39,984 nt of DNA from a virus: the IMG/VR virus record IMGVR_UViG_3300023276_000451, positions 1 through 39,984 of that record; one strand, given 5' to 3'. Position numbers and translations under genes: made by a program. This document shows, piece after piece, positions 1 through 32,588 of this stretch. The first letter of the stretch is position 1. Every line of letters begins with the position of its first letter. The notes under the pieces were generated by a model that was not told where the DNA came from, did not search any database, and saw only the letters and a list, made by a program, of their open reading frames with translations.

Positions 1-3000
1 GAAAAGAACTGGCCATACTTTACGCCGGTGAAAGCGGGACAGGGTATTGTTACTATTAGATTAGCGTCTAATCCTGATATTATTTTAAGTCAGCTGTCTT
101 CCTCACAAAAAGCTATAGGTACTAATGGTGTATTAAGACAACAGATTACTAAGTTTATAAGAGAGAATCCAGGTAAGGCAGATATTAAAGCAACAATAGC
201 AGGAAAAACTGCAGGTTACTTTATGAATTTAAAACATGATGGTAAATCTATACAACAACCATTATCTGTTCTAGGGGAAGATATATTACTAGGTGTAGAT
301 CTTGGAGGTCAGGGGATTAACTGGAACAATACAAATGAAAATAATTTTGAATCAGAGTATACAGAACCTGGAAGAGTTTATGTACAAATAAAGAGTGCAA
401 ATGGTATTGGGCATCCAGTAAGACTACAAACATCTAGACTAACTGATGAAGCAGCTAGAAATATTTTAGATACTTTAACTAGTAATCAATTTACTGCAGA
501 AGAAAAAGGATTACTAGTTGAACAATTAGTATATATTCCAAGGGGTAATAATGCAGATGCACAATTTAAATTAGGAAATAAAACTAGCAAAACATTTGCA
601 GCAAAGTTTGATGTAACAATGGATAACTTTGTAATTAAGTTCCCATTTAGAGGAAAGGTTATAGGTATCCAATATAATATGGAGGGAAGAGAAGGTAATA
701 CCCGTAACAACTTACAGTCTGCTTTAGAAGGGGGAGAATTTTTATATAAAGAATATGATGAGCAAGGGAATTTAGTACCCCAAGAAGGTGATATAGTAGC
801 TACAAATGATATGAGTGCTAAACGAAATACTCTTCGTAGTAGTAATAGCTTAGAGTTAGCACCGACGGAAATAAGAGATGCACTTATTGAGCATTTAAAA
901 ACTAAAGTATACAATATACAAAAGCATAAAATAAATAGTACAGACTCATACTTAAGTCCATTAAGAGAGCAGGCTTTTTCTGATTACAATTCATTCTTAA
1001 AAGAAATGAATATCTTAACTACAGATATACCAGGGAAAGGGCAACAAAGAATAAGTCATTCTAGACTATTTGTAGAAGTAGAGCCTACCGCATTTACACC
1101 TGCAGAGAGTGTAATGCCAGCAGCGCTATCAGACAGTCTTGTTCTTACTCCAGTACCAGAGAATAGCGAAGATGATTTTGTAATTGAGTCCTCTTCTGAT
1201 ACATCTTTTGGAGATATTATAGGAGATACTATACAACAAACTAGTGAGATTAAAGCAGACATTGAAGCAAGTCCACAAGATTTAAAAGACTTAGGGATAG
1301 AAACTACTTATGCAGAAAGTTCAGAAGAGATTCAAGATCTTATAAATGAAGGATGGGAAGAAATAGGAACAACAGAAGATGGATTTCCTAAGTTTTCTAG
1401 AAAAATTAAACCAACACCACAAACTAGTGAGGTTGAAGTTGTAACTTACAAAGGTACTAAATATTCAGTTGACTTTAATGTTGGTAGCGGAACAATAACA
1501 AATTTAAAAACAGGAAAAGTTTTAGAGGGAGGAGTTACTTCTCCTGTTGGTCAGGCTGTTGTAGATTTAGCAATAGATCAACAAGACTCAACACAACCAA
1601 CTAGTGAGGAATCAACTGGAGGTACAATGACAGTAACTACTCCTCTTACAGCAGAAACTTATGTAGACGGTACTGCAGGTAAACAGGTTATTGTAGGGGT
1701 AGATCCTACTAAAGATGATGATTTTGATGTTAAGTTACGTGAGTATGAGCAAGTAGGTCCTGGATATGATCTTATGACAGAGACTGAAAAGAGTTGGGTA
1801 TTAGATAGATTTGGTGAAGAAGCTTTAGATGTAGTAAATAGAGTAAAATATATGACTCTTGATTGGGGAAGACAGGCATGGGGTTATTATCACAATGGAT
1901 TGATGACCGTAGCAGAAGGCGCACTAGCCGGAACTGCATATTGGGAAGCATTCCGTAGAATATATGATCTACATTTAACTGAGGATGAGAAATCATCTAT
2001 TGAGATGGAAATGCTAGAAAAAATGGGTATTTCACAAAGATTAGAGGGAGCAAGAAAAACGTTAAAGTTTTTTGAAAGCTTTTCTTCAAGTATGACATCT
2101 ATCTCAATAGACAATCCACAGCTTAATGAAGTTTCAGTATCACTAGACTTAGATTTAGGAGGCCTGAATATTACGCTGGATAGAAATAAAATGGCAACTT
2201 ATGATAGAGTAGACGTCATAGAGAAATTAACAGCACAGATTCAAAAACTTGAAGATAATGATATAGAGACAAGATTAGCTGAAGCATTCAAAGACTACCA
2301 ATTAACTGAGAATGCAGAAGGATTTGGAGGAGCTGTAAAAAGATTCTTTAGAGATTTGTGGTATGCAATTAAGAATATGCTAGGCTCACGAAGTGAAATC
2401 GAATACTTATTCAGAGATCTTAATAACAGAGAGTTCACTCAATATACAGCTGCGGAAGCTAAAACTTTATCTGAAGTTAGGACGCCTAAGCTAAGAGCGA
2501 AGAGAGGATACAACACAGATCAATCAAAAGAGATAGTTAATAATATTAATTATAAACTAGCACAAGCTTTGAAAGCTAAGTATAAAGAAACAGAAACTCC
2601 AGGAGCTTGGAGAGATGCTTTAACTCAGCCTAACGAATTAAAAGGTGCTTATGAATCTATCAGACAAGCTTGGGAAACAACAGGTAAAAAGCTTTCAGAA
2701 AGTGAGGATACAAATACTAAGAATAAAGGTAACAATGCAATTAATGTAACTAAACCAGATGTATGGTATGATGTCGTTGATGAATATGGCAATGTAGTTA
2801 GTCCTGGATTTATGTCACTTGCAGTGCGCGGATTGAGATCTCAGTTTGGTATTAAATATAAAATTAAGAAAGGGGGAGAAATAAATTACAATAACCCTGA
2901 AATAGAAGAAGCTTTAACAGAAGAGCAGGTAGAGACAATAGAGGCAACAGAATCTACTGAAAGAATTTTTGGACAGAACTTTTTTAATAGTCCTGTTAAA

Positions 3001-6000
3001 CAAACATTAGCTAAAGAGATTAAATTTGAATTAGGATTTATTGTAGAGCGTGATGCTAAGGGAGCAGTTGTACATGGTAAAGTACTTGGATTTCCTCAGT
3101 TTATGGCATTTGATGAGATCTATGCATACTTATCTGTAAACCTAGCAAACTCTCCACAAGGTAAAGTAATAGCTAAATTAGAAAAGCTAGCAGAAAATGG
3201 GCTACCAATGATGGATCAGGTAGTTAGAATATACCAGGAAGCTACTCCGCAGTGGAAAAATAAATTTGTATCACACTTTAATAAACAAAACATCAGGTTT
3301 GAAACTGTTATCTATCAGAAAGACGGTACAGCAAAAATTGTTGAAACTAATCGTAATGGTTTAGAGAATCAGATTATACGTAAATGGGTAGACACTAGAG
3401 ATCAGACAGCTATTTATTCACCTACAACAGGTAAAGAAGATGCATTGAGCGCTCCTGCTATAGATAAACTAAAAGAGTTATATGATACTACTACTAGACT
3501 TAGCAGAGAAGGTGCTACTAAAAAAGACTATCTAAGAGCTTTTAAAAATACATTAGATTATGCAGGACTCAAACTAAGCCCGGAAACTTATATGGGACTA
3601 TTTAATGACGAAACTCGTACAGTAAGAGATCTTAATAGTTATATGGTTGGTAATAGTTCGTTTGAGCATATCATGAAAACATTAATGCAGTTTAATAATC
3701 CTTACTTAAAAGGAACCTCAGAGACTGGCGCTCTTAAAAGATTAGCAGGATTAGAATCAAAATATCGTATAGATAGTTATGCAGCTTCGTTTTTAGGAGG
3801 GAATAGAAAACCAATCTATTCTATTAATTTAAATACATATGATTCTAAAACTACATTAGAATTACGTTCGGATGAAACCTATAGACAGGCTATTTTAAAT
3901 AGATTCCGTGATGTATTCTACAGCCCATCAGAAAATAATAGACATCTTATTTTAAATATGCTATTAAATGATGAGCAAATGAGAAACAATTTCCAACTTA
4001 GTACATTCGATGTAATTAGAGAATCCGCTAATGCTGGAAAGATAAGTGCTTATGATGAAATGGACCAAGCTCTTTCTGCTGTTACAAGGTTTATTATGTT
4101 TTACAACAGTGGATTAAATTACAGTAAGTTTAATACTGGAACTAAAGGAGATAAAAATCAATCTAAATATATAACACTTCCAAAGATAGGACCGAGGTCT
4201 AAGTATTGGAGATCTAATAGTTTAGGACAAGATGGATATGTTCAGACAGCGGTATCATTATTACAGCCTGCACTTATGGGAGAGTTAGCAAGAATATCAA
4301 AAGTTAACAAACAATTATTCGGGCCTAATCCCATATCACTAGATGAACAGACACAATATGTACACTATGAAAAAGTTAAAGGAGATAATAAAGGTGCAGG
4401 TTTAAGATTTGTACAATTCCCTTCTTTAAATACAGAGAAGTTCTTTACTCCTGAAGGGAGGTTAAGAGAGAATGAGACTATAGAATTAACTGCAGAACAG
4501 ACTGTGTTAATGAATACTCATTTAGAAAGATATGTAGTAAAAGAAATGGAATCTACTATCGAAACTTTAGTAAATGCAGGAGTAGTTAATAGAAAACCAA
4601 ACGGCGTTTATGAGAATGAGCTTTTACCATCACAGGCATATGAAGGAAAAACTACTGCAGAAACGGGTATATTACCGGCACTCCAAGAGTTTGCTATAAA
4701 TGATTTAGTATATAAACCTTATATTAATACAACATTTGGGCCAGACCTTGCATATTATAAATCAGATGCACAAGGAAATCCATTTATTGAATTTGGAAAG
4801 AGAGCTTATCAAAGTATTACACCTGGTATAGATGCGGTATATAATCAAGAGAATCAATATGGATTACCTTCCCACTTTTTACACGCTATATTAGCAGATG
4901 TAATGGTAAACAGTGAAGACCACATATATAAAATATTAATTGATGCAAAAGTTGATTCTAAAACAGCTAAAAGAATAGCAGCTGGATATTTGAGAGTAAA
5001 CTCTACTGATGCACAAGGGTATACAACATTAGACTTCCACAGAAAACAAATGGAATCTGATGGAAGTTGGACTCAAGAACATATAGATGCATATGACAAG
5101 TATTGGTCTAAAGGATTGATGGGAGATGCTAAATCAAGAGTATTATTATTAGACCCTAGAAAAACATATTACTTTGGTGAAAGAATACAAATAGACTCTC
5201 AAGGAAATGAAAATATAGTTTGGGAACAGATTAAACATTCTACAATACCATTGATTAGAGAGTTTACAGAACAGTTTAAAGAAGATCCAGGGAACCGAAA
5301 GGTTACTTTGAATCAGCTACGTATTCGAATGGAAGATACCAAGAGACCTATTGATATGGTTAATTTTGAGTCGGCTATTAAAATTGGAGCTACAGGAATT
5401 TTAGACCTAGCAGAACAAGATCTAAACCAAATAGCTGTTAATAAGTTAGAGACTAAACATCTTAGAAGTCCTCAAACTATTGAGACTAAGACTAAGGCCC
5501 CTTTAGATGGGACTCAAATGGCTAAACTATCTTTAGCAAATATAGCACTAGATAATAAATATAATATGTTTGATTCTAGTATATCAGGTAAAGAAGTACT
5601 TGACTTATACAACAATACTTATGCAGAACGTATAAAAAGATCTAGTGAAGCTCTATCTAAAAGATTAGGTATGCCTAGTTATACCGAGGCTGTTAATAAT
5701 AGAAGTACAATGAGTGCAGAAGCCTTTGGTAAAGCACAATTAGAATTCTTAAAGAAAGTTAGAGATGAAATTACAAACAGCCTAGATGAAAGAGATCTAG
5801 CAGATAATTATTATAACGCTCTAAATATTGAACGTTTAATGCAAGATGTAAATGTTTATGGATTTGAAGCACCATTATCTTTCCCCCCATTCGCAAAAAG
5901 ATTTGAAGCTATTTTATTATCTATGTATAAGAATGCAGTACTTAAACAACGTTTCAACGGTATGAGTGCAGTTCAGGTAGCTGAGTTTGGTTATAATATA

Positions 6001-9000
6001 GATAATAGATTACAAATTAAACCGCATAAGAATGGTGGAGTGTATGCTGAGGTAGCACTTCCTTATGAATTAGCAGTGAAGATAGGATTAAAGCCTGGAG
6101 AAGTAATTGATGGGTCAGATATATATGATTTATTAGGATACAGGATTCCTACACAGGGTAAAAACTCTATGCTATCTCTTAAGGTAGTAAAGATATTGCC
6201 TGAAAATATGGGAGGTGTTATTATGTTACCTGCAGAAGTTACAACAATGATGGGTTCTGATTTTGATATAGATAAGATGTATATCTTAATGCCTGAATTA
6301 TCAAAACAAAAAACTAAAATAGGCGCATTTGATTTACAAAAGTATAATACTAAGAAATCATTTGATGGATTATCAGATGCCGCATTAACAAATATAATAT
6401 TTGATATAAGAAATGGTATTATAACATCTAAGCATCATATTGTTGAACAATTAGATCCATTAGATTCTCCTACTTATACAAATAAATTAGAAGAGTATGA
6501 GTCTAAAGGTATTATTCCTAACTTATCTGGATTTAATAGTACTTCATTTGCTGCAGATATGTATCTTGAAAAAATTAATAAAGATGCATCAATGCTTATT
6601 GGTATATTTTCTTTACATGCTACAGGACATTCGGTTGCACAGCAAGTTAATTTACAATTAAAAGAAGGCTATGAGGTAAACATTAAAGGCAATAACAAGA
6701 GTGGGCATAGCGCCTTAAATAGAATCTTAGGATTTGATGGGAAGTTTATATCTAGTTATTTATCGGAAGATCAGAATGAATCTTTAGATAATGCAAAGTA
6801 CCAAAGAATTGGACGTGTAGGTGTAACAATGTATAATAGTGGTGTAGTAGCGCTTTTAAATAGATCCGGGTTTAATAATTCAATTACACTAGATTTTATT
6901 AATCAGCCTATACTACGAGATTTCTTTGAAAAACGTTACAAGCAGGGGCTTGAAATAACTGATTTACAAATAGCTAAGGAAATAGCGGGATCACTTAATT
7001 TAGGAGTCGAGTTTGATAATGCTAGAGAAATAGGCGGGGATAAAATATTTACTCCTTCTGAAAATTATTTATCAGAATCATTAACAGCCAACTTAAACGA
7101 TCCAGGGGTAGCGAGAAAACAAGTACAAATATTAGCTGACTTTTTAAAGTACAGTAAAGTAGGAAGAGATCTTGGAATGTTTAATGCAGCAGTATCACCA
7201 GAGACTCTTAAAAATATGTCTAGATTAAGTTTTATTGAAAACTATAGTAATAAAGTTGAATATTTACAAGGACCGCAGTCCTCTCTTAATATAGAACAAA
7301 CCAATGAAAGAATAGAGGCTTATAGAGTATACGGATTAGATGCGGCTACAGAGTTTGTATCACAGTTTGTTCCTTATAGTAGACCAGGATTCTCTCAACT
7401 TAAACAAGATATAGCATTTGCAACAGGTCAGAGAAATGGAATACTAACTCCTGAACTTACTGAAGTTATAAATGGCTTAGGATTATTCTGGGCACTTACT
7501 AAAAAGACCTCTCCATTTGGGTCTATGGTTTATGAGAATAATGAATATCTTAAAGAGTTACTATTTACTAAAGAGAATTCTCTTCTTAAGAATATGGAAA
7601 GGGTAAAGACTCAGTACGGTTTACAGAACGATCCTTTCTTAGGAATGTTATTTGGCCATGAGCAAAACATTAATGTAGATAATTTCTTACAACTGATAGC
7701 TTTTAATAATACAACTAAGCTAGGGGTTGACCAATTAAATGCTATTACAGACAGATGGTCTGAACTATTAGTTGATCCGAGAGATGAGGTAAGAACTCTA
7801 GCTCAGAATTTAGCTAAGTACTCAGTAGTTACATCTGGATTTATGATGGGACCAAACTCATTTGTAGATTTAGTGCCTATGTCATATTGGAAAAGTTCAG
7901 GATTAACAGATTTCTTCAGAAAAGAAGAAAGAACAATGAGTTATGAAAACTACTTTGTAGGCGGGGCAGAGCAAATTATAAGAACTATGTTTGCTGATAA
8001 TGGCTTCTTAATGACTGTAGATAATAAGACAGTAGAAACTTCAGACGCAGTTAGACAAAATTATAGTCTAACTAAGAATGAATATTTTATTCATAACGAT
8101 AATGCGCCACAACTAATTGTAGATCAGGTAGATGGCAGTACAAATAATGTAAATTACTTTAAATCTTTTATGGAAGGTAAGTTTAGATTATTTAAAATGC
8201 GTTACACTACTGAAACTGGAGCAGTATACCAAGAAATTACTCCACTAGGAGAGCGCTTCAAACAAGTTGAAATGCAGGCTGATAATATAGAGGTAACTAG
8301 TATTAATCCAATGAATACTTTAATACATGAAGCTCCTGTACCTACTGAAATAACTTTAGATAATATGATTCAGGGAGAAGAAACTAAGTTTAATGATCTT
8401 TTCCAGTTAACACCAGATGTAAAGCAAGCGGTTCTAACAAATATGGACCAAATGATTGAACAGTGGTTAATGCAGAACTTTGGTATTCCTGTAAAGAAAT
8501 ATGATAACCTTAAGGAAAAACTTGGAGTAGATGCTATAGGTGTGGCAGATATGTTAAACAGAGTAGTTAGAGTAGATAACAATAGAGACAGATTTACATT
8601 ACCTGAAGAGGCGGCACACTTTTTTGTAGAGATGATGGACAACGCTCCAATGCAGAGACTATTAGATTTAGTTGTTAAAACAAAAACTTACCAGGAAGTA
8701 CAGAATGACTATAAACATATTTATAATACTCCTGACATGTTTGCAAAAGAGGCGGCTGGTAAAATTTTAGCTAAGTATATAGTAGGTGAGTATGAAGGAG
8801 AGACAGTGGCCGAAGATTATGGAACCGGATTACTAGCTACACTTGCAAAGGTATGGGATTCTATAAAGAGATTCTTTGGAGGAAGGCGAAGTGAGATCAC
8901 TAGTTTAAACGAAGAACTAAGTAATATTCTTGGGCCTGCAGCTGATTCTATTATAAAAGGTATAAACCCAGGCGGTTTAAGCATAGACAACATAGGAGTA

Positions 9001-12000
9001 AATAAATTTTATGCTCTAAATAAAAGTAATTTAGAATATAGAAATGCTAAAGGAGAAAAAATAACTCCTTCTGATCTACTTAAGAGAGCAACACAAGCAG
9101 CTAGTAGTAAAATACCATACTTAAGACAGTTCACTGAGAAAGATAAAATGGATAAACTTATAGATGAATCTAGTAATATTACAGCCCCAACAGAAATTTC
9201 TCCATACTATGAAATGGATGGTGTTAAGATGAATAGGGTGAGCAATTTAATGGAAATATTCCAAGACCCATTTAAACAACAAGAGATTGCAACAAAAGTA
9301 GCAACTAAAAATAAAAATAATAATGATCCATTTAATACTCCTGATAAAGTCCAAGATTTATGGGATTTCTTAAGAGATGATATGGGAACTGGTTTACATA
9401 GTTTAGTTGAAGGTATTATTAATAAGTCTGACATGGAAGTTATACTAGATGGATTGCCTAAAGGAAATACAGAAGCGTTTAGAAGTGCAATTCCATCTCT
9501 TAGAGAGTGGGTGCGTAGTAAAGAGGCTGCAGGAAGTACTTTACATTCTGAAGTTATGGTAGGAGATCCACAGGATTTAATAGCAGGTAGTATTGATGTT
9601 ATAGAAGTAACATCTAATGGTCAAAAAATTCTTCATGATTTTAAAACTAAAACACGTGGTAAGTTTGGTAATATAATGAAAAAGCTACCTCCATTTAAAG
9701 GGGCGTTAGCAGGTATACAAAATAATTTACTTAATAAATATCGTATTCAGCTTTCGCTATATAAACATATTATAGAACAGAAAGGTATTAAGGTGGATAA
9801 AATAAATATAGTTCCTATTGAAGCTGGTGTGACTATGACTGAAGCAGGAAAGATTGTTTTTTCTAATGCAGAAATATCTACATCTACTGCTCCAATAATG
9901 ACTAAGTTGAATAATCTAGAACCTATTCCTACGAAAACACTTAATAAAATGATTGAGTTTATTGCCCCTAATCATAATACAATGATGGAGCAAAATGAGT
10001 TTAATCAAGTACTTAAAGTATTTGAGAAAGCCAAAGACCAATTAGAAATCAGAATTAATGTGTATTCTAAGGAACCAGGAAATAGTGATTACGCTAATAG
10101 ACTCCAAGAAGTATATAACGAAATGGAAATGCTTAATGAAAAAGAAGGTTTAGTTCTATTTGTTAAGAGAGCAGTAATGGATTTAAATAATGCGCATAGA
10201 AGATTAAATCAATTAAAGAAAGATGATGCATTAAATCCAAAAGTGTTAAGCCAACTTTTAACATTTGTAGGTGCCTTTAGTTCTTTAGAGGAGATAACAT
10301 TAATGGCGCCTTTATTGGCCCAATCAGGCTATGAGAATTTATTAGAAAAATATGTAATGCCTGCTATAGCTAAGAGAGATCTTATTCTAGAAGATGCTAA
10401 AGGATTAAATAGAGCACTTATAGCGGAGAAGTTTGCTAAAACAACTACTAATCCAGCATATAAAAACAACCCGGAGAAGTTTATGAAAGAGTTAGAAGTT
10501 GCAGGAGGAGATATAACATTCTTAGCAAGATTTCTAGCCGCAATGGGAGACTCTAATGATCCGTCATTAGCTATGATAGATAAGATGGTTACTATACAAA
10601 GAGGTAAAGTAAATAGATTTGAGTATGATTTTGAGCACGGTAAAGGACAATTAATGGATGTTATAACTAGCTTAGAAAAACATCAACATGCTAACGGTGT
10701 AGCAATTTGGAAGTATAGAGAGTTATATGATTTTATGCTCGAGAATGATAAAGATGGTAAGTTAACTGGTTATGTAGTTACTGAATATGTACCAGAATAT
10801 AGACAAGCCCAAAGAAATTTTATTGAAACTAAAACAGACCAAGGTTATGGTATGAGTGAGCTTATTTGGAATGAATTCTATGAAGAGGATATACAAAAGA
10901 ATGGTAATTATAATAAATATTTAAAGACATCACCTGAAGGGTATAAGAGTGAGAAGTATAAGCAGTTAAATGATATGCAAGAGTCTGACCCTAGAAGAGT
11001 TTTCTTTAATTTCTTTGCTTCTAATTATGAAGCAGCTCAAAGTAAATTACCTCAGTCTTATCAACGAGGGTACATGTTACCATCATTAAGAGCAACAGTA
11101 GCTGAAAAAGCATTTATGAATGAAGAACATAGAGGAATATTTATGGGACCTTATAATGCTGTTAGAGAGAGGATGGGTGAGCTATTCGGTAAACAAGAAG
11201 ATAATATTATGTGGGGTGAATATACAGATGCGGTAGGAGATCCTATGAGCTATGTCCCTATTCATTATTCAACTAGAATAGGAAATGCGGAAGGACAATT
11301 AAGCCCATCAGATTTATCTTATGATTTAGGAAGTATGATAAAAATGTATTCTACTATGGCGTCAAACTATCAAGAAATGACTGAAGTATTACCTGAACTA
11401 GAAATGGCTAAAGAGCTCGTAAGAACTCGTAGAGTTAGAAAACTTAAAGCTGGTATGCCTGTTAAGAATACAATTACAGGTAAAGATGTTACAATATCTG
11501 GAGAAGACTCAAGAGCTTGGGGTAGATTAGAAGCTTATTTTGATATGGTAATTTATGGTAAACGTAAAAAGCATGAAGGTGTTGTATCATTAAGAGGAAA
11601 AGAAATTAATATTGAACAAGTATACGATGCATTATTAAATATGGGAAGTTTAAGAGTACTTGCAATGAATCATATTGCAGCCGTAGCAAATATTACATTT
11701 GGTAGTTTAATGAATGCTATTGAAGCTTTTGCAGGTGAGTATATAACTATGAAAAATTGGACAAGAGCTAAAGGAATTTACCTAGGATATACAGCAGCAG
11801 ATGGTGTTGGGGGTATTGGGATTATAGCAGATACTTTAGCTAGAGCTCCAAAATCTAAACTAGGACAGATTAATCAATTATTTGATCTGCAACAACACTT
11901 TGATGAGTATGGTAGAAGACTTTCTCATAAGAAGATGGGTCTTAGAATGAATACAGGCGCTTTATACTTTCTGATGTCAGCAGGTGAGCATATGATCCAA

Positions 12001-12918
12001 AGTCAATTAGGTATTGGAATGATGATTGGTAAAAAATTCGAAACATCTAAAGGAACTACTAATTTATGGGATGCTTATTCGGTAGTAGATGGAAAGTTAG
12101 TATTAGACCCTGAAGTATCTTCTCAATTTAGTGAAACAGAAAGAATTCTATTTGCAGAAAAAATACAAGCCGTTTATCAAAGGATGCATGGTATTTATAA
12201 TGAAAAAGATAAAGCAGCTATACAACAGTATGCGGCAGGTAGATGGGCGTTACAATTCCGTAAATGGTTAATACCTGGGTACCTTCGTCGATTTGAAGGG
12301 GGAGAAAAATTATTCTACAATAAAGACTCTGATAGAAAAGGCCCTAATTGGAACGAGAGAAGAGAGGCTTATTCAGAAGGTAATTATGTTACAGCTTTAA
12401 AGTTTATAGGTAAATTAGGAAGAGATTTTTATAGATTACAATTTTTTACTTTAAGTAAGAATTACAAAGATCTTGCGCAATGGCAGCAAGCAAATATAAA
12501 ACGTTCTATAGGTGAAGTGATGGCATTTCAATTATTAACATTAGCAGGATTTGCCTTCTTTGGTTCTGAAGATGAGCCAGAAGAAAGATCACGAGGAGAT
12601 TGGTATGGATTATATACTATGAAGAGAGTACAATCCGAACTTGCATTCTATAATCCACTAGGAGCTTCATTCTATGAGATCTTAAGAACACCAGCTGCAA
12701 ATATGACTACACTAGAAGCCTATGCAAAACTAGCAAGACAAATATGGAGTGATGGTTGGAGTATTGCTTTAGGAGAAGACTATGAAAGATATAAGAGAAA
12801 AACAGGACAATACGAGAAAGGAGATCCTAAAATAAACAAATATATTAGGAATGCGTTACCATTTAAAGAATGGAGTACAGATCCAAAAGATAAAATTAAG
12901 TTTTTTGATTTAAAATAG
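1..12918 (+). CDS. Giant crAss-like virion RNA polymerase / cargo polyprotein (5' partial)
   Basis: The frame is open to the left edge: codons 1-27 are all sense, so the GTG at 28 is probably an internal valine and the gene starts outside the window. Residues below count from base 1. The metal-binding motif DFDID lies at 2087-2091, inside a conserved stretch with R-I-P-T-Q-G about 45 residues upstream. This is the signature of the double-psi-barrel RNA polymerase of crAss-like phages, a single-chain enzyme that enters the cell with the DNA and transcribes early genes. Residues about 440-560 are a T/S/E-rich linker. Around 639-652 and 2865-2873 there are two zincin-like domains with broken HExxH motifs. 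Around 3184-3215 there is a PD-(D/E)XK nuclease domain (E3184, D3199, D3213-F-K3215). The last 1,000 residues are helical, with hydrophobic segments near 3,900 and 4,180. In other crAss-like phages these functions are often spread over separate giant genes; here they are fused. The polymerase call is firm, the domain edges are not. Confidence 0.88.
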   Translation, partial: EKNWPYFTPVKAGQGIVTIRLASNPDIILSQLSSSQKAIGTNGVLRQQITKFIRENPGKADIKATIAGKTAGYFMNLKHDGKSIQQPLSVLGEDILLGVDLGGQGINWNNTNENNFESEYTEPGRVYVQIKSANGIGHPVRLQTSRLTDEAARNILDTLTSNQFTAEEKGLLVEQLVYIPRGNNADAQFKLGNKTSKTFAAKFDVTMDNFVIKFPFRGKVIGIQYNMEGREGNTRNNLQSALEGGEFLYKEYDEQGNLVPQEGDIVATNDMSAKRNTLRSSNSLELAPTEIRDALIEHLKTKVYNIQKHKINSTDSYLSPLREQAFSDYNSFLKEMNILTTDIPGKGQQRISHSRLFVEVEPTAFTPAESVMPAALSDSLVLTPVPENSEDDFVIESSSDTSFGDIIGDTIQQTSEIKADIEASPQDLKDLGIETTYAESSEEIQDLINEGWEEIGTTEDGFPKFSRKIKPTPQTSEVEVVTYKGTKYSVDFNVGSGTITNLKTGKVLEGGVTSPVGQAVVDLAIDQQDSTQPTSEESTGGTMTVTTPLTAETYVDGTAGKQVIVGVDPTKDDDFDVKLREYEQVGPGYDLMTETEKSWVLDRFGEEALDVVNRVKYMTLDWGRQAWGYYHNGLMTVAEGALAGTAYWEAFRRIYDLHLTEDEKSSIEMEMLEKMGISQRLEGARKTLKFFESFSSSMTSISIDNPQLNEVSVSLDLDLGGLNITLDRNKMATYDRVDVIEKLTAQIQKLEDNDIETRLAEAFKDYQLTENAEGFGGAVKRFFRDLWYAIKNMLGSRSEIEYLFRDLNNREFTQYTAAEAKTLSEVRTPKLRAKRGYNTDQSKEIVNNINYKLAQALKAKYKETETPGAWRDALTQPNELKGAYESIRQAWETTGKKLSESEDTNTKNKGNNAINVTKPDVWYDVVDEYGNVVSPGFMSLAVRGLRSQFGIKYKIKKGGEINYNNPEIEEALTEEQVETIEATESTERIFGQNFFNSPVKQTLAKEIKFELGFIVERDAKGAVVHGKVLGFPQFMAFDEIYAYLSVNLANSPQGKVIAKLEKLAENGLPMMDQVVRIYQEATPQWKNKFVSHFNKQNIRFETVIYQKDGTAKIVETNRNGLENQIIRKWVDTRDQTAIYSPTTGKEDALSAPAIDKLKELYDTTTRLSREGATKKDYLRAFKNTLDYAGLKLSPETYMGLFNDETRTVRDLNSYMVGNSSFEHIMKTLMQFNNPYLKGTSETGALKRLAGLESKYRIDSYAASFLGGNRKPIYSINLNTYDSKTTLELRSDETYRQAILNRFRDVFYSPSENNRHLILNMLLNDEQMRNNFQLSTFDVIRESANAGKISAYDEMDQALSAVTRFIMFYNSGLNYSKFNTGTKGDKNQSKYITLPKIGPRSKYWRSNSLGQDGYVQTAVSLLQPALMGELARISKVNKQLFGPNPISLDEQTQYVHYEKVKGDNKGAGLRFVQFPSLNTEKFFTPEGRLRENETIELTAEQTVLMNTHLERYVVKEMESTIETLVNAGVVNRKPNGVYENELLPSQAYEGKTTAETGILPALQEFAINDLVYKPYINTTFGPDLAYYKSDAQGNPFIEFGKRAYQSITPGIDAVYNQENQYGLPSHFLHAILADVMVNSEDHIYKILIDAKVDSKTAKRIAAGYLRVNSTDAQGYTTLDFHRKQMESDGSWTQEHIDAYDKYWSKGLMGDAKSRVLLLDPRKTYYFGERIQIDSQGNENIVWEQIKHSTIPLIREFTEQFKEDPGNRKVTLNQLRIRMEDTKRPIDMVNFESAIKIGATGILDLAEQDLNQIAVNKLETKHLRSPQTIETKTKAPLDGTQMAKLSLANIALDNKYNMFDSSISGKEVLDLYNNTYAERIKRSSEALSKRLGMPSYTEAVNNRSTMSAEAFGKAQLEFLKKVRDEITNSLDERDLADNYYNALNIERLMQDVNVYGFEAPLSFPPFAKRFEAILLSMYKNAVLKQRFNGMSAVQVAEFGYNIDNRLQIKPHKNGGVYAEVALPYELAVKIGLKPGEVIDGSDIYDLLGYRIPTQGKNSMLSLKVVKILPENMGGVIMLPAEVTTMMGSDFDIDKMYILMPELSKQKTKIGAFDLQKYNTKKSFDGLSDAALTNIIFDIRNGIITSKHHIVEQLDPLDSPTYTNKLEEYESKGIIPNLSGFNSTSFAADMYLEKINKDASMLIGIFSLHATGHSVAQQVNLQLKEGYEVNIKGNNKSGHSALNRILGFDGKFISSYLSEDQNESLDNAKYQRIGRVGVTMYNSGVVALLNRSGFNNSITLDFINQPILRDFFEKRYKQGLEITDLQIAKEIAGSLNLGVEFDNAREIGGDKIFTPSENYLSESLTANLNDPGVARKQVQILADFLKYSKVGRDLGMFNAAVSPETLKNMSRLSFIENYSNKVEYLQGPQSSLNIEQTNERIEAYRVYGLDAATEFVSQFVPYSRPGFSQLKQDIAFATGQRNGILTPELTEVINGLGLFWALTKKTSPFGSMVYENNEYLKELLFTKENSLLKNMERVKTQYGLQNDPFLGMLFGHEQNINVDNFLQLIAFNNTTKLGVDQLNAITDRWSELLVDPRDEVRTLAQNLAKYSVVTSGFMMGPNSFVDLVPMSYWKSSGLTDFFRKEERTMSYENYFVGGAEQIIRTMFADNGFLMTVDNKTVETSDAVRQNYSLTKNEYFIHNDNAPQLIVDQVDGSTNNVNYFKSFMEGKFRLFKMRYTTETGAVYQEITPLGERFKQVEMQADNIEVTSINPMNTLIHEAPVPTEITLDNMIQGEETKFNDLFQLTPDVKQAVLTNMDQMIEQWLMQNFGIPVKKYDNLKEKLGVDAIGVADMLNRVVRVDNNRDRFTLPEEAAHFFVEMMDNAPMQRLLDLVVKTKTYQEVQNDYKHIYNTPDMFAKEAAGKILAKYIVGEYEGETVAEDYGTGLLATLAKVWDSIKRFFGGRRSEITSLNEELSNILGPAADSIIKGINPGGLSIDNIGVNKFYALNKSNLEYRNAKGEKITPSDLLKRATQAASSKIPYLRQFTEKDKMDKLIDESSNITAPTEISPYYEMDGVKMNRVSNLMEIFQDPFKQQEIATKVATKNKNNNDPFNTPDKVQDLWDFLRDDMGTGLHSLVEGIINKSDMEVILDGLPKGNTEAFRSAIPSLREWVRSKEAAGSTLHSEVMVGDPQDLIAGSIDVIEVTSNGQKILHDFKTKTRGKFGNIMKKLPPFKGALAGIQNNLLNKYRIQLSLYKHIIEQKGIKVDKINIVPIEAGVTMTEAGKIVFSNAEISTSTAPIMTKLNNLEPIPTKTLNKMIEFIAPNHNTMMEQNEFNQVLKVFEKAKDQLEIRINVYSKEPGNSDYANRLQEVYNEMEMLNEKEGLVLFVKRAVMDLNNAHRRLNQLKKDDALNPKVLSQLLTFVGAFSSLEEITLMAPLLAQSGYENLLEKYVMPAIAKRDLILEDAKGLNRALIAEKFAKTTTNPAYKNNPEKFMKELEVAGGDITFLARFLAAMGDSNDPSLAMIDKMVTIQRGKVNRFEYDFEHGKGQLMDVITSLEKHQHANGVAIWKYRELYDFMLENDKDGKLTGYVVTEYVPEYRQAQRNFIETKTDQGYGMSELIWNEFYEEDIQKNGNYNKYLKTSPEGYKSEKYKQLNDMQESDPRRVFFNFFASNYEAAQSKLPQSYQRGYMLPSLRATVAEKAFMNEEHRGIFMGPYNAVRERMGELFGKQEDNIMWGEYTDAVGDPMSYVPIHYSTRIGNAEGQLSPSDLSYDLGSMIKMYSTMASNYQEMTEVLPELEMAKELVRTRRVRKLKAGMPVKNTITGKDVTISGEDSRAWGRLEAYFDMVIYGKRKKHEGVVSLRGKEINIEQVYDALLNMGSLRVLAMNHIAAVANITFGSLMNAIEAFAGEYITMKNWTRAKGIYLGYTAADGVGGIGIIADTLARAPKSKLGQINQLFDLQQHFDEYGRRLSHKKMGLRMNTGALYFLMSAGEHMIQSQLGIGMMIGKKFETSKGTTNLWDAYSVVDGKLVLDPEVSSQFSETERILFAEKIQAVYQRMHGIYNEKDKAAIQQYAAGRWALQFRKWLIPGYLRRFEGGEKLFYNKDSDRKGPNWNERREAYSEGNYVTALKFIGKLGRDFYRLQFFTLSKNYKDLAQWQQANIKRSIGEVMAFQLLTLAGFAFFGSEDEPEERSRGDWYGLYTMKRVQSELAFYNPLGASFYEILRTPAANMTTLEAYAKLARQIWSDGWSIALGEDYERYKRKTGQYEKGDPKINKYIRNALPFKEWSTDPKDKIKFFDLK

Positions 12919-24249: not shown

Positions 24250-25445
24250 CTCATTAACTCAACACTATACCCAGTCTGAGAAGAAGAAACCCATTTCTCT
24301 TCTTGACTATTTTCTATATATAGATGAAAGATTAGCGCCTGCTTACCTTCCTCCCACCTAACAACACGACCTATTCGTTGAATAAGATCTTTTGTTTTGC
24401 TGGTTCCACTGGCTATAATAGCCATTGAAATATCCGGGACATTCATGCCCTCGTTCAAAGCCTTAGCAGTTGAAATACGTGTAACCTTAGTTCTGTTATC
24501 TATAAGTTTGTCTAAATTAGCCTTGCGGGCCTTTTTACCAATCTTACTATGAAAACTTACACAGTTATCACCTAGTTCATCTGTGACTTTGTCAGCAAAT
24601 TCAATAGTCTGAGAAAATATGATTATCTTCCTCTCAGGGTATAGTTCACATAAATGTTTAACAGCATCGATCTTAGCCTCAGAGTTATATAATAACTTCT
24701 TACGCTTTGCCATAGCTGCATTACATCTAAATGGAAATGTCTTATTCTCGTCATCGAGAGACATTCCTTTACGTTGTAAAAACGTTTCATAATTACGCGG
24801 TTTCATACATGAATACATTAACTTAAGGTCCCTATCAAAGAAAGGGAACAAGCCATTAAATGAATTATTAGCTGAAGTATAAGACTTTTTCTCAGCCCCA
24901 GATAATTTTAATGGTATATTATATATTGTGAAATCACTAATTAGTTTTAAATCTCTTGCTTTCTGCGTATTAAGTCTGTCACATATTGGTGCAACAGCAT
25001 TTAATAACGGCATTTTAACAGGATCTATATAAGCAGACAGTCCTAAAACTTTATCATACTTATTTCGTGAAAAGAAATTAAAATACTCTGGAGCTATATA
25101 ATTATGTATTTCATCTGCTATGACTAAATCATAATGATGTCCTATATATTTATATGCAGTTTGTATACATACAGCTTCTACACATGTATTATATACATCC
25201 ATATGTCCCCATTTCTTAAATTCTTCTTTCCATGCACGGTCTCTAATAGTTTCAGTTGGTGTTAAAATTAAAATGTTACAATCCATACCTGATTTTTTCG
25301 CTATTAGGGCCGCTGCTAATACACCACATCTTGTCTTACCAACACCTGTAGCATATTGTAATGTTCCTTTTCCATTAACTGGATAAGACCACCACTTATT
25401 CAACCCTTTGCGTTGAATCTTGTCTTTTGTTTCATTTGCACTCAT
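24234..25445 (-). CDS. SF2 DNA/RNA helicase (DEIH-box)
   Basis: 403 aa. Motif I is A-T-G-V-G-K-T-R (32-39), motif Ia is I-L-T-P-T, motif II is D111-E-I-H114, motif III is L-S-A-Y (usually S-A-T), motif IV is I-I-I-F-S-Q-T, motif V is L-N-E-G-M-N-V-P-D, and motif VI is Q-R-I-G-R-V-V-R near residue 370. The order and spacing fit SF2 helicases of the UvsW/XPB type. T4 UvsW unwinds branched DNA and R-loops and promotes the switch to recombination-driven replication. It follows the DNA polymerase gene by 11 bases. The last codons take part in a hairpin. Confidence 0.86.
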   Translation of the reverse strand: MSANETKDKIQRKGLNKWWSYPVNGKGTLQYATGVGKTRCGVLAAALIAKKSGMDCNILILTPTETIRDRAWKEEFKKWGHMDVYNTCVEAVCIQTAYKYIGHHYDLVIADEIHNYIAPEYFNFFSRNKYDKVLGLSAYIDPVKMPLLNAVAPICDRLNTQKARDLKLISDFTIYNIPLKLSGAEKKSYTSANNSFNGLFPFFDRDLKLMYSCMKPRNYETFLQRKGMSLDDENKTFPFRCNAAMAKRKKLLYNSEAKIDAVKHLCELYPERKIIIFSQTIEFADKVTDELGDNCVSFHSKIGKKARKANLDKLIDNRTKVTRISTAKALNEGMNVPDISMAIIASGTSKTKDLIQRIGRVVRWEEGKQALIFHLYIENSQEEKWVSSSQTGYSVELMRLEQS

Positions 25446-27730: not shown

Positions 27731-29590
27731 TTAAACTATTTCACATGATCCACCAGCACATGCTATTTCTTGGCTCCTTGTTGTATTATCATCTTTTTCT
27801 CTGATTTTACGAAGGTCAATAGCTTGTAACTCATTTATCATAGAGTAATATTTTGACTTGGAAATGTTTTCGAATGGAGCTTGTATATAAGATCCTCCAT
27901 CAAATGGTAATATACTTAAACCATTAAATGTGTCTCTATTTTTCCACATCCAGTCACCAACCTCTTTCCATTCATTTTCTTTAATGGATACAGTGGCTGA
28001 TACATTGTTTGTGTTATCTCCTGTTCGATGTCCTTCTCTTACCCATTCTAAGTTAAATACTCTAACTCGTTCAAGTAATTGAAGTGCTGTTTCTTCATGT
28101 CGTAAAATGGAGTTGGCAGGAGCCTTTTGAGGGATCTCAATTACTGCAGAGTTTGGTATTAGTTTCATATCTTCAACCAACTCAGGATGAGCTTTGGCCA
28201 AATACTTATATAATTCCTCATCTTTAGTGCATTGCATACGTCTAATATAATAGTCGTTATGCCACGCATGTATACCTGAAGATGTCCCTAATACACAACT
28301 CGTAGTTCCGGAAGGTTTAATAGTCGTTACCCTCGCTGCTTTATTGATACCTAATAACTTTGCATAGTATTCATTGGCATCCATTGCAACTTTCGCTGCC
28401 TGGTTCAAATCATACTTCAAAATCGTACCGCTTCCTATTCCTGTCATCCCAACACCAATTAAGGCGTCTTTTTCAGTTGTTGTTCTCCATATTGGTCGAA
28501 GATAATGGAAGTTCGCGAAACTAGCTTGTAGTGTTCCTAGTAGTGATGCTAATTTACACCTCTTCGATAAATCTTCTTGTGACTCAATATTTGAAACGTT
28601 AACCTCAGTGAGATTACAAAATTGAAATGGTTTTAAGGCAATCTCGCAACAAGGGTTTGTACCATAATCACTATTATTAGTGAAATACATACCCGGCTCG
28701 CCTGCGTTAGACTCTTGAACTTTCGTCCAAAATGTCTTAAACTCAGAACGAGTGATTCGGTGTCTACGAATAACTGCACTGTTGTTAGCCCGTCCTCTTT
28801 GAGGATTCAGCTCCCACCAATTTCCATATTTACTTGTTAGCATTTCTTCATCATCCATTGAGAATAATGAGATCAATGCTGCTCTCCTAATACCGCCTGC
28901 AAGCACAGCGTCAGCGATATAACACACCATATCGTGTACCTCCAAAGGCTTAAGAGAACTTCCTGTTTGTTTTCTGTTTAATAATGTTTCTAAATGATAT
29001 AAGCACGTTTTCAACGGCTCAGGACCGGGAGCTTTACCCCCAGCAGTTACTAGTCGGGACCCTTTCGGACGAATATCAGAGAAGTCAAATAATGGCTTCG
29101 TCTTTCTTATTCCTAGAAAGCTTCCAACTAGATGTCTTACAGCATCAGCCCAACCTTCAATAGAATCACTAATTAAATATTTCTGACTCTTTTGTGGTTT
29201 AACTATTTCTGGTAAGTTTCTTACATGTTTATATTGTACTGAATATCCAACACCTGTTCCTCCTAGTAAAAGGAACATAATTTCAGAGAAAGCTCTGTAA
29301 TCATCTATTGGTAAATATGCACAGTTGTAAATCCTTGATTCTGACTTAGTTATAGCAGCTCCCGCGAACTGCATAGCCCTCATCGAAGGTAGTATTTTCT
29401 TATCTTTTACAAATTTCATAGCTTCTTTTATATCCTTGGCTATGTTAGGATGTTTAGTAATCATCATATCTTGATAACGATTACATATTTCACTGAAGGT
29501 TTCCCTTCTACCTTTTTCAGGCATAAACTTGGCGTATTTATTGAAGACGACTATGTCGCTTAATATCTGGTTAGATATATCCATTTGCAT
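27731..29590 (-). CDS. nrdJ: Adenosylcobalamin-dependent (class II) ribonucleoside-triphosphate reductase
   Basis: 619 aa, shorter than the Lactobacillus leichmannii enzyme (739 aa). All key residues can be placed: C90 in N-C-A-Y-L and C325 in F-Q-F-C-N-L form the active-site pair, C314 in N312-P-C-C-E316 is the thiyl-radical cysteine with its N and E partners (the 11-residue spacing between C314 and C325 equals that in L. leichmannii), and C611-A-G-G-S-C616 is the C-terminal redox pair. It converts ribonucleotides to deoxyribonucleotides for phage DNA synthesis and needs host B12 but no oxygen. The C-x4-C tail shows that it is the monomeric RTPR type. No intein is present. Confidence 0.95.
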   Translation of the reverse strand: MQMDISNQILSDIVVFNKYAKFMPEKGRRETFSEICNRYQDMMITKHPNIAKDIKEAMKFVKDKKILPSMRAMQFAGAAITKSESRIYNCAYLPIDDYRAFSEIMFLLLGGTGVGYSVQYKHVRNLPEIVKPQKSQKYLISDSIEGWADAVRHLVGSFLGIRKTKPLFDFSDIRPKGSRLVTAGGKAPGPEPLKTCLYHLETLLNRKQTGSSLKPLEVHDMVCYIADAVLAGGIRRAALISLFSMDDEEMLTSKYGNWWELNPQRGRANNSAVIRRHRITRSEFKTFWTKVQESNAGEPGMYFTNNSDYGTNPCCEIALKPFQFCNLTEVNVSNIESQEDLSKRCKLASLLGTLQASFANFHYLRPIWRTTTEKDALIGVGMTGIGSGTILKYDLNQAAKVAMDANEYYAKLLGINKAARVTTIKPSGTTSCVLGTSSGIHAWHNDYYIRRMQCTKDEELYKYLAKAHPELVEDMKLIPNSAVIEIPQKAPANSILRHEETALQLLERVRVFNLEWVREGHRTGDNTNNVSATVSIKENEWKEVGDWMWKNRDTFNGLSILPFDGGSYIQAPFENISKSKYYSMINELQAIDLRKIREKDDNTTRSQEIACAGGSCEIV

Positions 29591-29735: not shown

Positions 29736-29749
29736 TAGTGTTGAGTTGT
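29736..29749 (-). repeat. Shared AACAACTCAACACTA leader motif, copy 1
   Basis: On the minus strand this reads AACAACTCAACACTA just after a CCCTTTT run, in the leader between the 67-aa gene and the tRNA-like element. The same 14 bases (AACAACTCAACACT) occur in the leader at 32327-32340. Their AACTCAACACT(A) core is the exact reverse complement of a stretch in the putative small RNA at 32437-32530. Confidence 0.55.
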
Positions 29750-29761
29750 TAAAAGGGTAGC

Positions 29762-29787
29762 AAAGATAACTAATTTAGTTAATCTTT
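29762..29787 (-). terminator. A/T-rich hairpin at the end of the 67-aa gene
   Basis: Minus-strand AAAGAT-T-AACTA pairs with TAGTT-ATCTTT around an AAT loop, eleven pairs with one bulged T. It includes the stop codon. GCTACCCTTTT follows. The pairing is strong for this AT-rich context, but the stem holds few G/C pairs, so terminator activity is only possible. Confidence 0.4.
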
Positions 29788-29978
29788 CGCCCTCTTAAAT
29801 GTAATTTTATTCGTTTATTTATTTCTTTTCGTCTGGTCTTATAATCTTCATAAGTTTCATCCTCTTTACGTTGAGGATCCATATCAATATCAAAAAATGC
29901 AGAATCTTTATTTCCTGATAATGGTTCCGCAATGGGTACACCATAGCTTTTCCACTTGTTTTCTTTCTTTTTTGCCAT
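29775..29978 (-). CDS. Small basic protein
   Basis: 67 aa. It begins M-A-K-K-K-E-N-K-W and ends R-I-K-L-H-L-R-G-R-K-I-N, with a central D-I-D-M-D-P-Q-R-K. The closing pattern (E-x-Y-x-x-Y-K-x-R-R-K-x-x-N-K-x-I-K) resembles small basic proteins seen in many phages, but I cannot name a family. The strong charge suggests nucleic-acid or acidic-protein binding. It overlaps the upstream 71-aa ORF by 71 bases in another frame; the typical phage-like composition makes this the safer of the two. Confidence 0.65.
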   Translation of the reverse strand: MAKKKENKWKSYGVPIAEPLSGNKDSAFFDIDMDPQRKEDETYEDYKTRRKEINKRIKLHLRGRKIN

Positions 29979-31392: not shown

Positions 31393-32148
31393 TTATAATG
31401 GTTTAATAGTAGCTAATGGAGCTTTCTCTTCAACAACAGTAGTTGCTTGAACAGTATACTCTGCTAACTCAGGAGTATATTCATCTATCTCAATATGCTC
31501 CCAATTATCATTAACTAAACTAACTTCACCCTCAGCATTTGTAACTAGAGTAGCTGATTTAACTCTACAAAGCTCAATGATGTATTCAGCAGTTATTTCA
31601 CCAGTTTGCTCATTAGTATAAGCACCCTTGATGTATCTACCGTTTGCACCAGCTTTCTTTGCTTCTTTTAGTACATTCTCATAGTAATATTTCTCCTTTA
31701 CAGGGTCCATTTCCGATGGTACTAACAATCTCGCCCACTTTTGTAACTGTAAGCATTTTGTAAGCGAACCACCTGCACCATTAGGAACAGTAAATGTAGG
31801 GTTCATCTTACCAATGAATATTCTAGAGTTTCCACCGTCTAATGGTAGGTTATCTAATTCATTGCTATTAATACCGAATGATGTAACTGCTTCATTCAAT
31901 TTAATAGTTAACCATGACACTCTTACACCTGAACCACCTTGGAAGTTTGTATCTTCTTTGTTGAAGAAACCAAGCATGTTAAAGCTGTTGTTAGTGTTAG
32001 GTAGCATTTGTCTCACCTCAATACTAAAGTTCTTAATAGTAGTTCCTTTAGTAGGTGCAATTCTTTTGATGTTTAATGCTAATACATCATTTGTTTGCAT
32101 GCTTGCGATAGCATCTTTCTCTTGTTGTGAATAGTTTATCTTCGCCAT
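31393..32148 (-). CDS. Hypothetical early protein, 251 aa
   Basis: The start is taken at M-A-K-I-N-Y-S-Q-Q-E (32148). An in-frame ATG 51 bases upstream would add M-I-T-Q-N-R-R-V-Q-C, which looks less like a natural N-terminus, but it cannot be excluded. The protein is soluble with beta-rich character (alternating T-I-K-N-F-S-I-E-V-R, R-V-S-W-L-T-I-K-L) and a disordered C-terminal tail (V-E-E-K-A-P-L-A-T-I-K-P-L). It has its own promoter box, a roughly 200-base leader and a stable 3' hairpin, which suggests strong early expression. A nucleic-acid-binding role is conceivable, but no family is recognised. Confidence 0.7.
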   Translation of the reverse strand: MAKINYSQQEKDAIASMQTNDVLALNIKRIAPTKGTTIKNFSIEVRQMLPNTNNSFNMLGFFNKEDTNFQGGSGVRVSWLTIKLNEAVTSFGINSNELDNLPLDGGNSRIFIGKMNPTFTVPNGAGGSLTKCLQLQKWARLLVPSEMDPVKEKYYYENVLKEAKKAGANGRYIKGAYTNEQTGEITAEYIIELCRVKSATLVTNAEGEVSLVNDNWEHIEIDEYTPELAEYTVQATTVVEEKAPLATIKPL

Positions 32149-32406
32149 TTGTTCTGTTGTGCGGTTATTACATTGCACTCTTCGGTTTTGTGTTATCATA
32201 GCACTTTAGCTATATATATATTAATATACTATAATAACAATGTTATAAATTATGTTCAATATGGTAGTCTTAACACACATAAGTGTCTATGTATACTTAT
32301 TTTCATCTTCCTTATCAATATCATTAAGTGTTGAGTTGTTTTATAAGGGGAAGAGGAGTATAATTCGCAATACATACACACAATTAGTAGTTAATCGTAT
32401 CCAATA
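32149..32406 (-). other. Long leader upstream of the 251-aa gene
   Basis: No convincing ORF. It runs from the promoter box at 32407 to the start at 32148 (or 32199). It contains an AT-rich TATATATATA stretch near 32210 and, at 32327-32340, the minus-strand motif AACAACTCAACACT, preceded by CCCCTTATAAA, matching the leader at 29736. A leader of this length with a conserved motif complementary to a neighbouring small RNA suggests post-transcriptional control. Confidence 0.45.
32327..32340 (-). repeat. Shared AACAACTCAACACT leader motif, copy 2
   Basis: Fourteen bases identical to copy 1 at 29736-29749, in the same orientation and again preceded by a C-run and A/T stretch. The last 11 bases (AACTCAACACT) are the reverse complement of part of the adjacent putative small RNA. 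Confidence 0.55.
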
Positions 32407-32427
32407 CTTAGTAAAGGTCTTTGATCT
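32401..32427 (-). promoter_or_regulatory. Early promoter box 1
   Basis: Minus strand TTAGATC-AAA-GACC-TTTACTAAG, then TATTGG. It matches boxes 2-4 in sequence and in its place just after a terminator. The 3' part (TAAG..TTGG) resembles the Bacteroidota -7 element TAnnTTTG. It would drive the long leader and the 251-aa gene. Confidence 0.55.
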
Positions 32428-32484
32428 AAAAAAAAAGAGACGAACAAGTTTACTTGATTTTACTCAAGGGTCATAATACTTGTT
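32428..32484 (-). terminator. Intrinsic terminator of the putative small RNA
   Basis: Minus strand: AACAAGT pairs with ACTTGTT, enclosing a second stem CTTGA/TCAAG. Then CGTCTC leads into a run of nine T. This is a strong double-stem intrinsic terminator, with no protein-coding gene upstream of it before the next promoter box. Confidence 0.7.
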
Positions 32485-32530
32485 TATCTCTTGTGTTACG
32501 CACACACGAACTCAACACTAGTTCTTTATC
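32437..32530 (-). ncRNA. Putative phage small RNA between promoter box 2 and a terminator
   Basis: About 95-100 nt. It is bounded 5' by promoter box 2 (predicted start near 32530) and 3' by a double-stem terminator with nine T. It holds no ORF longer than M-T-L-E-stop. The 5' part contains CTAGTGTTGAGTT, whose reverse complement AACTCAACACT(A) occurs in the leaders at 32327-32337 (11 nt) and 29736-29747 (12 nt). GTGTT can pair with AACAC 16 bases later, leaving GAGTTCGTG in the loop as a possible seed. Transcription and function are inferred from these signals. Confidence 0.5.
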
Positions 32531-32533
32531 TTA

Positions 32534-32563
32534 CCAAGACTTAGTAATGGTCATAGATCTAAT
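32534..32563 (-). promoter_or_regulatory. Early promoter box 2
   Basis: Minus strand TTAGATC-TAT-GACC-ATTACTAAG, followed by TCTTGG. It lies directly after the terminator of the 80-aa gene and is followed only by the putative small RNA. The same elements and spacing occur in boxes 1 and 3. Confidence 0.55.
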
Positions 32564-32588
32564 TAAAAAAAGAAGAGACTACTCTTCT
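32564..32588 (-). terminator. Intrinsic terminator of the 80-aa gene
   Basis: Minus strand AGAAGAG-TAGT-CTCTTCT followed by seven T. The seven-pair stem begins inside the coding region and the stop codon TAG falls in the loop. Nearly the same arrangement ends the neighbouring 59-aa gene. Confidence 0.75.

Follow-up and report, generated by a model that had tools for sequence, protein, structure and literature searches.

A candidate trans-acting small RNA of a crAss-like phage with a conserved seed complementary to two leaders

Results

We analyzed a 39,984-nucleotide stretch of viral DNA (positions 1 to 39,984 of IMG/VR record IMGVR_UViG_3300023276_000451; hereafter the window), in which a noncoding unit at 32563-32428 on the minus strand, lying between a 31-bp box and a terminator, is a candidate small RNA (sRNA). 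The unit carries AGTGTTGAGTT on the minus strand at 32519-32509, and the complement of this seed stands in the leader of a 251-aa gene and in the leader upstream of a tRNA-like element and a ribonucleotide reductase gene. The original prediction, made from this stretch, had proposed such a seed with two leader complements read on the same strand, and we located all three sequences at the places and on the strand that it gave. It had also described a unit with no protein gene, closed by a terminator and nine T; this description holds, with no minus-strand open reading frame (ORF) of at least 40 aa in the unit and a T-run at 32436-32428. No reading frame is kept among the sRNA homologues. The unit is built as follows:

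32535-32565, minus strand: box 2 (TTAGATCTATGACCATTACTAAGTCTTG), a candidate phage promoter found by weight-matrix scan, member of direct repeat family D1
32428-32527, minus strand: sRNA core, AAAGAAC-TAGTGTTGAGT-...-terminator, kept in 8 distinct loci
32509-32520, minus strand: seed TAGTGTTGAGTT, with TAGTGTTGAGT invariant in 8 of 8 homologues; complementary to sites 1 and 2
32493-32507, minus strand: small GUGU/ACAC hairpin 3' of the seed; GTGT...ACAC in all homologues, with a varying loop
32435-32492, minus strand: two-part terminator hairpin with internal loop UAUUAYGACC; fold z = -3.6 (window), stem covarying
32428-32436, minus strand: nine-T run, the predicted transcript end (sequence)

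Box 2 follows directly on the T-run of the preceding terminator. The weight-matrix scan found three copies of the box in the window, and two strong copies plus a weaker third candidate in each 86-87 kb relative, all adjoining the sRNA unit. The window copies (TTTAGATCNANGACCWTTACTWA, at 32875-32845, 32565-32535 and 32432-32402 on the minus strand) always stand right after a terminator T-run, and the same box also precedes leader 1 and the upstream 80-aa gene. We regard it as a candidate early promoter of the virion RNA polymerase.

The seed, of which AGUGUUGAGU is a stretch, has a predicted opening energy of 0.8-4.1 kcal/mol. In the terminator, a script run on the homologue alignment counted three pairs of the outer stem in which both partners differ between groups (A-U/C-G, C-G/A-U and A-U/G-C). 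Rfam returned nothing for the unit at E values up to 1, and in four relatives nothing except tRNA genes reached the gathering score. Two properties of trans-acting sRNAs are present: a discrete, noncoding, terminator-bounded unit, with a promoter box that is putative and displaced in four relatives, and a short, conserved, accessible seed directed against separate messages (10-12 nt, 8 loci, two leaders).

The leaders that contain the two complementary sites, and the genes behind them, are arranged as follows:

32402-32432, minus strand: box 3, candidate promoter of leader 1 (weight-matrix scan)
32390-32404, minus strand: 5' arm of leader-1 stem P1 (covariation)
32327-32337, minus strand: site 1, AACTCAACACT (11 nt); its 10-mer ACTCAACACT is identical in 6 of 6 genomes having leader 1
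32262-32274, minus strand: 3' arm of stem P1 (covariation)
31393-32148, minus strand: 251-aa gene, target gene 1; counted from the 10-mer's first base, site 1 lies 188 nt before its start
29754-29792, minus strand: hairpin and CCCTTTT ending the 67-aa gene, directly 5' of site 2 (sequence of 8 loci)
29736-29747, minus strand: site 2, AACTCAACACTA; ACTCAACACTA in 7 of 8 loci, CCTCAACACTA in L045
29622-29713, minus strand: conserved tRNA-like element, 3' of site 2 and 5' of ribonucleotide reductase (comparison of loci)
27731-29590, minus strand: B12-type ribonucleotide reductase, target gene 2 (phrog_367, E 1e-127; PF02867/PF21995)

In leader 1, the long-range stem P1 encloses site 1: 97% of its cells are paired, compared with 25-48% in slid controls, and four of its pairs are changed on both sides. 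Because essentially only two groups are separated, the covarying changes in P1 and in the terminator represent few events. Site 1 itself is predicted to open at a cost of 0.4-1.4 kcal/mol (ranks 1, 6, 2, 7, 1 and 1 of 29 sampled 10-mers), and it stands 188-191 nt from the start codon in 6 of 6 genomes. The covariation of P1 and this constant spacing suggest that the leader of the 251-aa gene (32404-32262, minus strand) is regulatory in its own right. A helix sequestering the start codon was hinted at by the alignment fold and was dropped, since single-sequence folds did not show it.

In leader 2, the order is a hairpin with CCTTTT, then site 2, then the conserved tRNA-like element. AACTCAACACT occupies 29747-29737 (minus strand), and the match grows to 12 nt, as originally proposed, with the next base, A 29736, which pairs with T 32520 of the seed. 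In folds that include the hairpin, site 2 is predicted to pair with the 5' half of the tRNA-like element in 5 of 8 loci, a pairing that would stop the element from folding. The element shows a 7-bp acceptor-like stem, a variable arm with a compensatory change, a T-arm-like GGTTCGA and a 23-nt invariant block. ARAGORN made no call at 29713-29622, and Rfam gave only a weak, sub-threshold DUF805b match near the 5' end.

To find relatives, we scanned IMG/VR with the neighbouring 80-aa and 67-aa proteins, the box pair, the seed plus a downstream motif, and two seed-free patterns. Seven further distinct versions of the RNA were recovered (L020, L009, L027, L018, L032, L035 and L040), all with TAGTGTTGAGT. 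On the five contigs that reach far enough (L009, L027, L018, L032 and L040), ACTCAACACT occurs twice on the same strand, first 178-182 nt and then ∼2.5-3 kb downstream of the seed. Three more sequences contain site 2: L015, which hardly differs from the window, L078 (ACTCAACACTA) and, with a one-base change, L045 (CCTCAACACTA). The seed is identical across the 8 distinct loci and both sites are kept in all six genomes holding them, with about half of the flanking positions invariant. The pairing common to all relatives is 10 nt at site 1 (AGTGTTGAGT/ACTCAACACT) and 11 nt at site 2 (TAGTGTTGAGT/ACTCAACACTA). Two relatives of 86-87 kb have totals of four and five 10-mer copies, and in them sites 1 and 2 are the only target sites on the same strand. 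Thus the proposal of an sRNA acting on the phage's own leaders gains support: the unit and its seed complementarity are kept in every relative that can be checked, while the flanks diverge.

That the seed is constant does not stem from searching with it, because a seed-free pattern recovers the same loci (L009, L014, L027, L030, L032 and L040); L020 and L035 are known only through scans naming the seed or a neighbouring gene. The seed-free scans found no unit with another seed, and they also yielded two more site 2 sequences. Neither a search of the sRNA region against cultured phages nor an sRNA scan of the genome collection gave a match; likewise, the 67-aa protein had no match in cultured phages or bacterial genomes, and a scan with the 268-aa protein found no relative. 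Four of the six matches in the box-pair scan of viral contigs were due to chance and were rejected.

Four loci have 23-28 nt between box and seed; in the remaining four this distance is 104, 171, 177 and 285 nt. The part of the unit that is always kept begins at about AAAGAAC, just 5' of the seed, and two origins of the functional RNA are conceivable, as a primary transcript or as the 3' piece of a longer RNA. Between box and core, the inserts differ from one another (L018 ∼3075-3240, L027 ∼7670-7770, L035 ∼110-280, L040 ∼190-470), and Rfam found nothing convincing in those of L018, L027 and L035.

The original prediction had also judged a chance match of this length to be unlikely, and our counts bear this out. 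The 40-kb window contains four copies of the 11-mer, at the three sites named above and in helicase coding DNA, so the 11-mer is not frequent in coding sequence, as a refutation of the prediction would have required. There are no copies with one mismatch, and shuffles lead one to expect 1.1 matches at up to one mismatch. When the sRNA was shuffled, one 11-mer complementary to both leaders arose in 0.14% of trials (window alone). When 10-mers were compared across six genomes, only ACTCAACACT and CTCAACACTA, which overlaps it with a shift of one base, occurred in every genome in both orientations with a separation of 100 nt or more; reversed and complemented (not reverse-complemented) controls gave 0. 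Conservation of either site alone is moderate evidence only; what is exceptional is that the two sites are identical and complementary to the seed, and the decisive evidence is conservation in relatives.

The fourth copy of the 11-mer has the same sense as the seed:

24256-24266, minus strand: AGTGTTGAGTT at the end of the helicase coding sequence, role uncertain

This copy (TAGTGTTGAGTT) is unchanged at synonymous positions in six genomes. Other codon stretches of the helicase gene are nearly as invariant, and a coding explanation is therefore sufficient, although the copy may still be a second seed. A codon change from Leu to Val turns the copy into TAGTGTTGAGG in L045 and L078. We considered the helicase copy as a covarying partner of site 2, given TAGTGTTGAGG in L045, and rejected it, since L078 shares the helicase change without a change in site 2.

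Discussion

We consider it probable, from sequence comparison, that the seed and the two leaders pair at the RNA level and that the unit is a trans-acting, base-pairing sRNA of a crAss-like phage. The feature is real and conserved, and most probably takes its place as a trans-acting sRNA among the phage-encoded base-pairing RNAs. Transcription of the unit, pairing in vivo and remodelling of the leaders are steps that we infer.

Several observations weigh against this interpretation. In the two leader alignments, 27 of 311 and 38 of 231 windows are conserved to the same degree as the sites, so that neither site stands out when taken singly. Although the predicted seed/site duplexes reach -15 to -20 kcal/mol, a genome-wide scan of duplex energy does not return sites 1 and 2 as the top matches, because GU-rich or longer imperfect duplexes score equally; energy alone is therefore no evidence. 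Site 2 is not especially open (4.9-6.8 kcal/mol), and a copy of the 11-mer sits in helicase coding DNA. The core is separated from the box by 104-285 nt in L018, L027, L035 and L040, and in L040 the insert between them is a small ORF that has the TAG of the seed as its stop codon; a stand-alone transcript is for these reasons not universal. Finally, the covariation between seed and target that had been hoped for in related phages did not appear: the seed and site 1 are frozen, and the single change in site 2 is in L045, whose sRNA lies off the contig. Base pairing is thus not proven by covariation, since the seed and sites lack compensatory change.

This last point speaks for an alternative that we judge unlikely, in which a phage protein (a transcription factor, nuclease or replication protein) recognizes the 10-mer as a DNA site, and its occurrence in both orientations is a coincidence. 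DNA motifs work in either orientation, and the helicase copy would then be a further site. However, most DNA sites tolerate variation, while the window holds no one-mismatch copy, and the motif is not palindromic. Its distance to the box varies as well: 23-285 nt for the seed and ∼70-75 nt for site 1, with no box near site 2. In addition, the motif always lies within a noncoding, terminator-bounded unit with conserved RNA structure.

An action purely in cis appears still more doubtful. Here the seed, in read-through transcripts, would pair with site 1 ∼180 nt downstream and fold the terminator between them, whereas the conservation of site 2 would reflect a separate cis pairing, between that site and the tRNA-like element. 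The nearly constant spacing from seed to site 1 (178-182 nt) fits this, as does the ability of site 2 to pair with AGTAG and TGTTG of the element, with a probability of 0.3-0.9 in 5 of 8 loci. But this explanation does not account for the same 10-mer at site 2, 2.5-3 kb away; the site 2 cis pairing falls below 0.3 in L009 and L045 and is not seen in L018; and a covarying terminator separates the seed from site 1. Functionless chance complementarity between conserved noncoding stretches can draw on the ∼50% invariance of both leaders over six to seven sequences and on other stretches that are equally conserved, but it is very improbable given that shuffles of the window sRNA so rarely yield such an 11-mer and that the six genomes share a single 10-mer pair of this kind, against none in either of two controls.

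If the unit is a trans-acting sRNA, it would be transcribed from near box 2 as an RNA of ∼95-130 nt, or in some relatives released by cleavage as the 3' part of a longer RNA. The RNA would expose the seed UAGUGUUGAGU near its 5' end and terminate at the two-part intrinsic terminator. The seed would form 10-12 bp with ACTCAACACT(A) in leader 1 and again in leader 2, ahead of the tRNA-like element and ribonucleotide reductase. As the two sites are ∼150-190 nt upstream of start codons, masking of the ribosome-binding site is unlikely. By analogy with DsrA on rpoS, the sRNA would more likely remodel or protect structured leaders, with effects on how they fold, are processed or persist; at site 2, it would also compete with the cis pairing between that site and the 5' half of the tRNA-like element. 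We have low confidence in any particular regulatory outcome, and for the sign of the effect our guess slightly favours activation. It is a speculative extension, and one that we think unlikely to hold, that one sRNA switches two leaders, that the tRNA-like element folds only with site 2 occupied, and that the seed copy in the helicase feeds back on the same sites, forming an RNA circuit at the border between early and replication genes.

Known phage RNAs offer partial parallels. P1/P7 c4 RNA and P22 sar RNA act in trans or as antisense RNAs on phage ant mRNA (PMC12197685). Like them, the unit would be a short phage-encoded RNA pairing with a message of the same phage; unlike them, it would not act on antirepressor messages of temperate phages (where sar blocks translation initiation), but on the leaders of an uncharacterised gene and of ribonucleotide reductase in a crAss-like phage, at sites 150-190 nt upstream of the starts. 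Lambda OOP RNA, which is cis-antisense to cII (PMC12197685), resembles the predicted RNA in its length of ∼80-100 nt and in pairing with a phage mRNA. OOP, however, lies opposite its target, whereas the present sRNA is on the same strand as both of its targets and matches them over 10-12 nt only, so that it is not a cis-antisense RNA of the OOP type. VpdS, PreS and 24B_1 are prophage or phage trans sRNAs (PMC12197685), the kind of trans-acting phage sRNA proposed here. The predicted pairing also has a bacterial counterpart, which shares its location far upstream in a long structured leader. DsrA pairs at such a position in the rpoS leader; it differs in being bacterial and Hfq-dependent, while the present RNA would be phage-encoded. 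Phages that regulate their own messages by RNA are known mostly among temperate phages.

The window contains genes for DNA polymerase A, a helicase, a primase, rIIA/rIIB-like proteins and the B12-type ribonucleotide reductase. The same region is present in a relative, G1, of 87,235 bases with a 77-base terminal overlap, whose terminase is ∼40% identical to those of gut crAss-like phages and, like the portal and major head proteins, matches PHROG families. The crAss-type terminase, portal and capsid proteins are found in G1 and not in the window itself; through this close relative, we assign the window to the genome of a crAss-like phage (Crassvirales), of which it is a fragment. The Crassvirales include the most abundant gut viruses. 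From the sample numbers we infer that this phage is marine, and the cultured phage collection contained no close relative.

According to a review of Crassvirales, the virion RNA polymerase transcribes early modules of regulatory genes and middle modules of replication genes; the review mentions neither small RNAs nor promoters (PMC10136315). Because of these early and middle modules, the sRNA is placed where control of timing would be useful: it would act at the early/middle border, on the leaders of the gene that opens the replication side and of ribonucleotide reductase. If this is true, a conserved sRNA with two leader targets would add RNA-level control to a gene order driven by the virion RNA polymerase, in a phage group whose review mentions no such RNA (PMC10136315). 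The defined 10-nt seed is open to mutation and compensation in a plasmid reporter.

Ribonucleotide reductase genes are 84-87% identical among relatives (L015 99.7%), and the 251-aa protein is strongly divergent (30-61% identity between relatives), even though its leader keeps site 1. That protein had only weak matches in Pfam and PHROG, none at E 0.001. Its structural model (pLDDT 62) had no match among solved structures and one unnamed viral structural match (A0A516MIV0, E 8e-6); we dropped any assignment of function in view of the pLDDT and the lack of a solved-structure match. Elsewhere in the window, a 4296-aa ORF without any Pfam match (28-12918, plus strand) is possibly a crAss-type giant virion protein.
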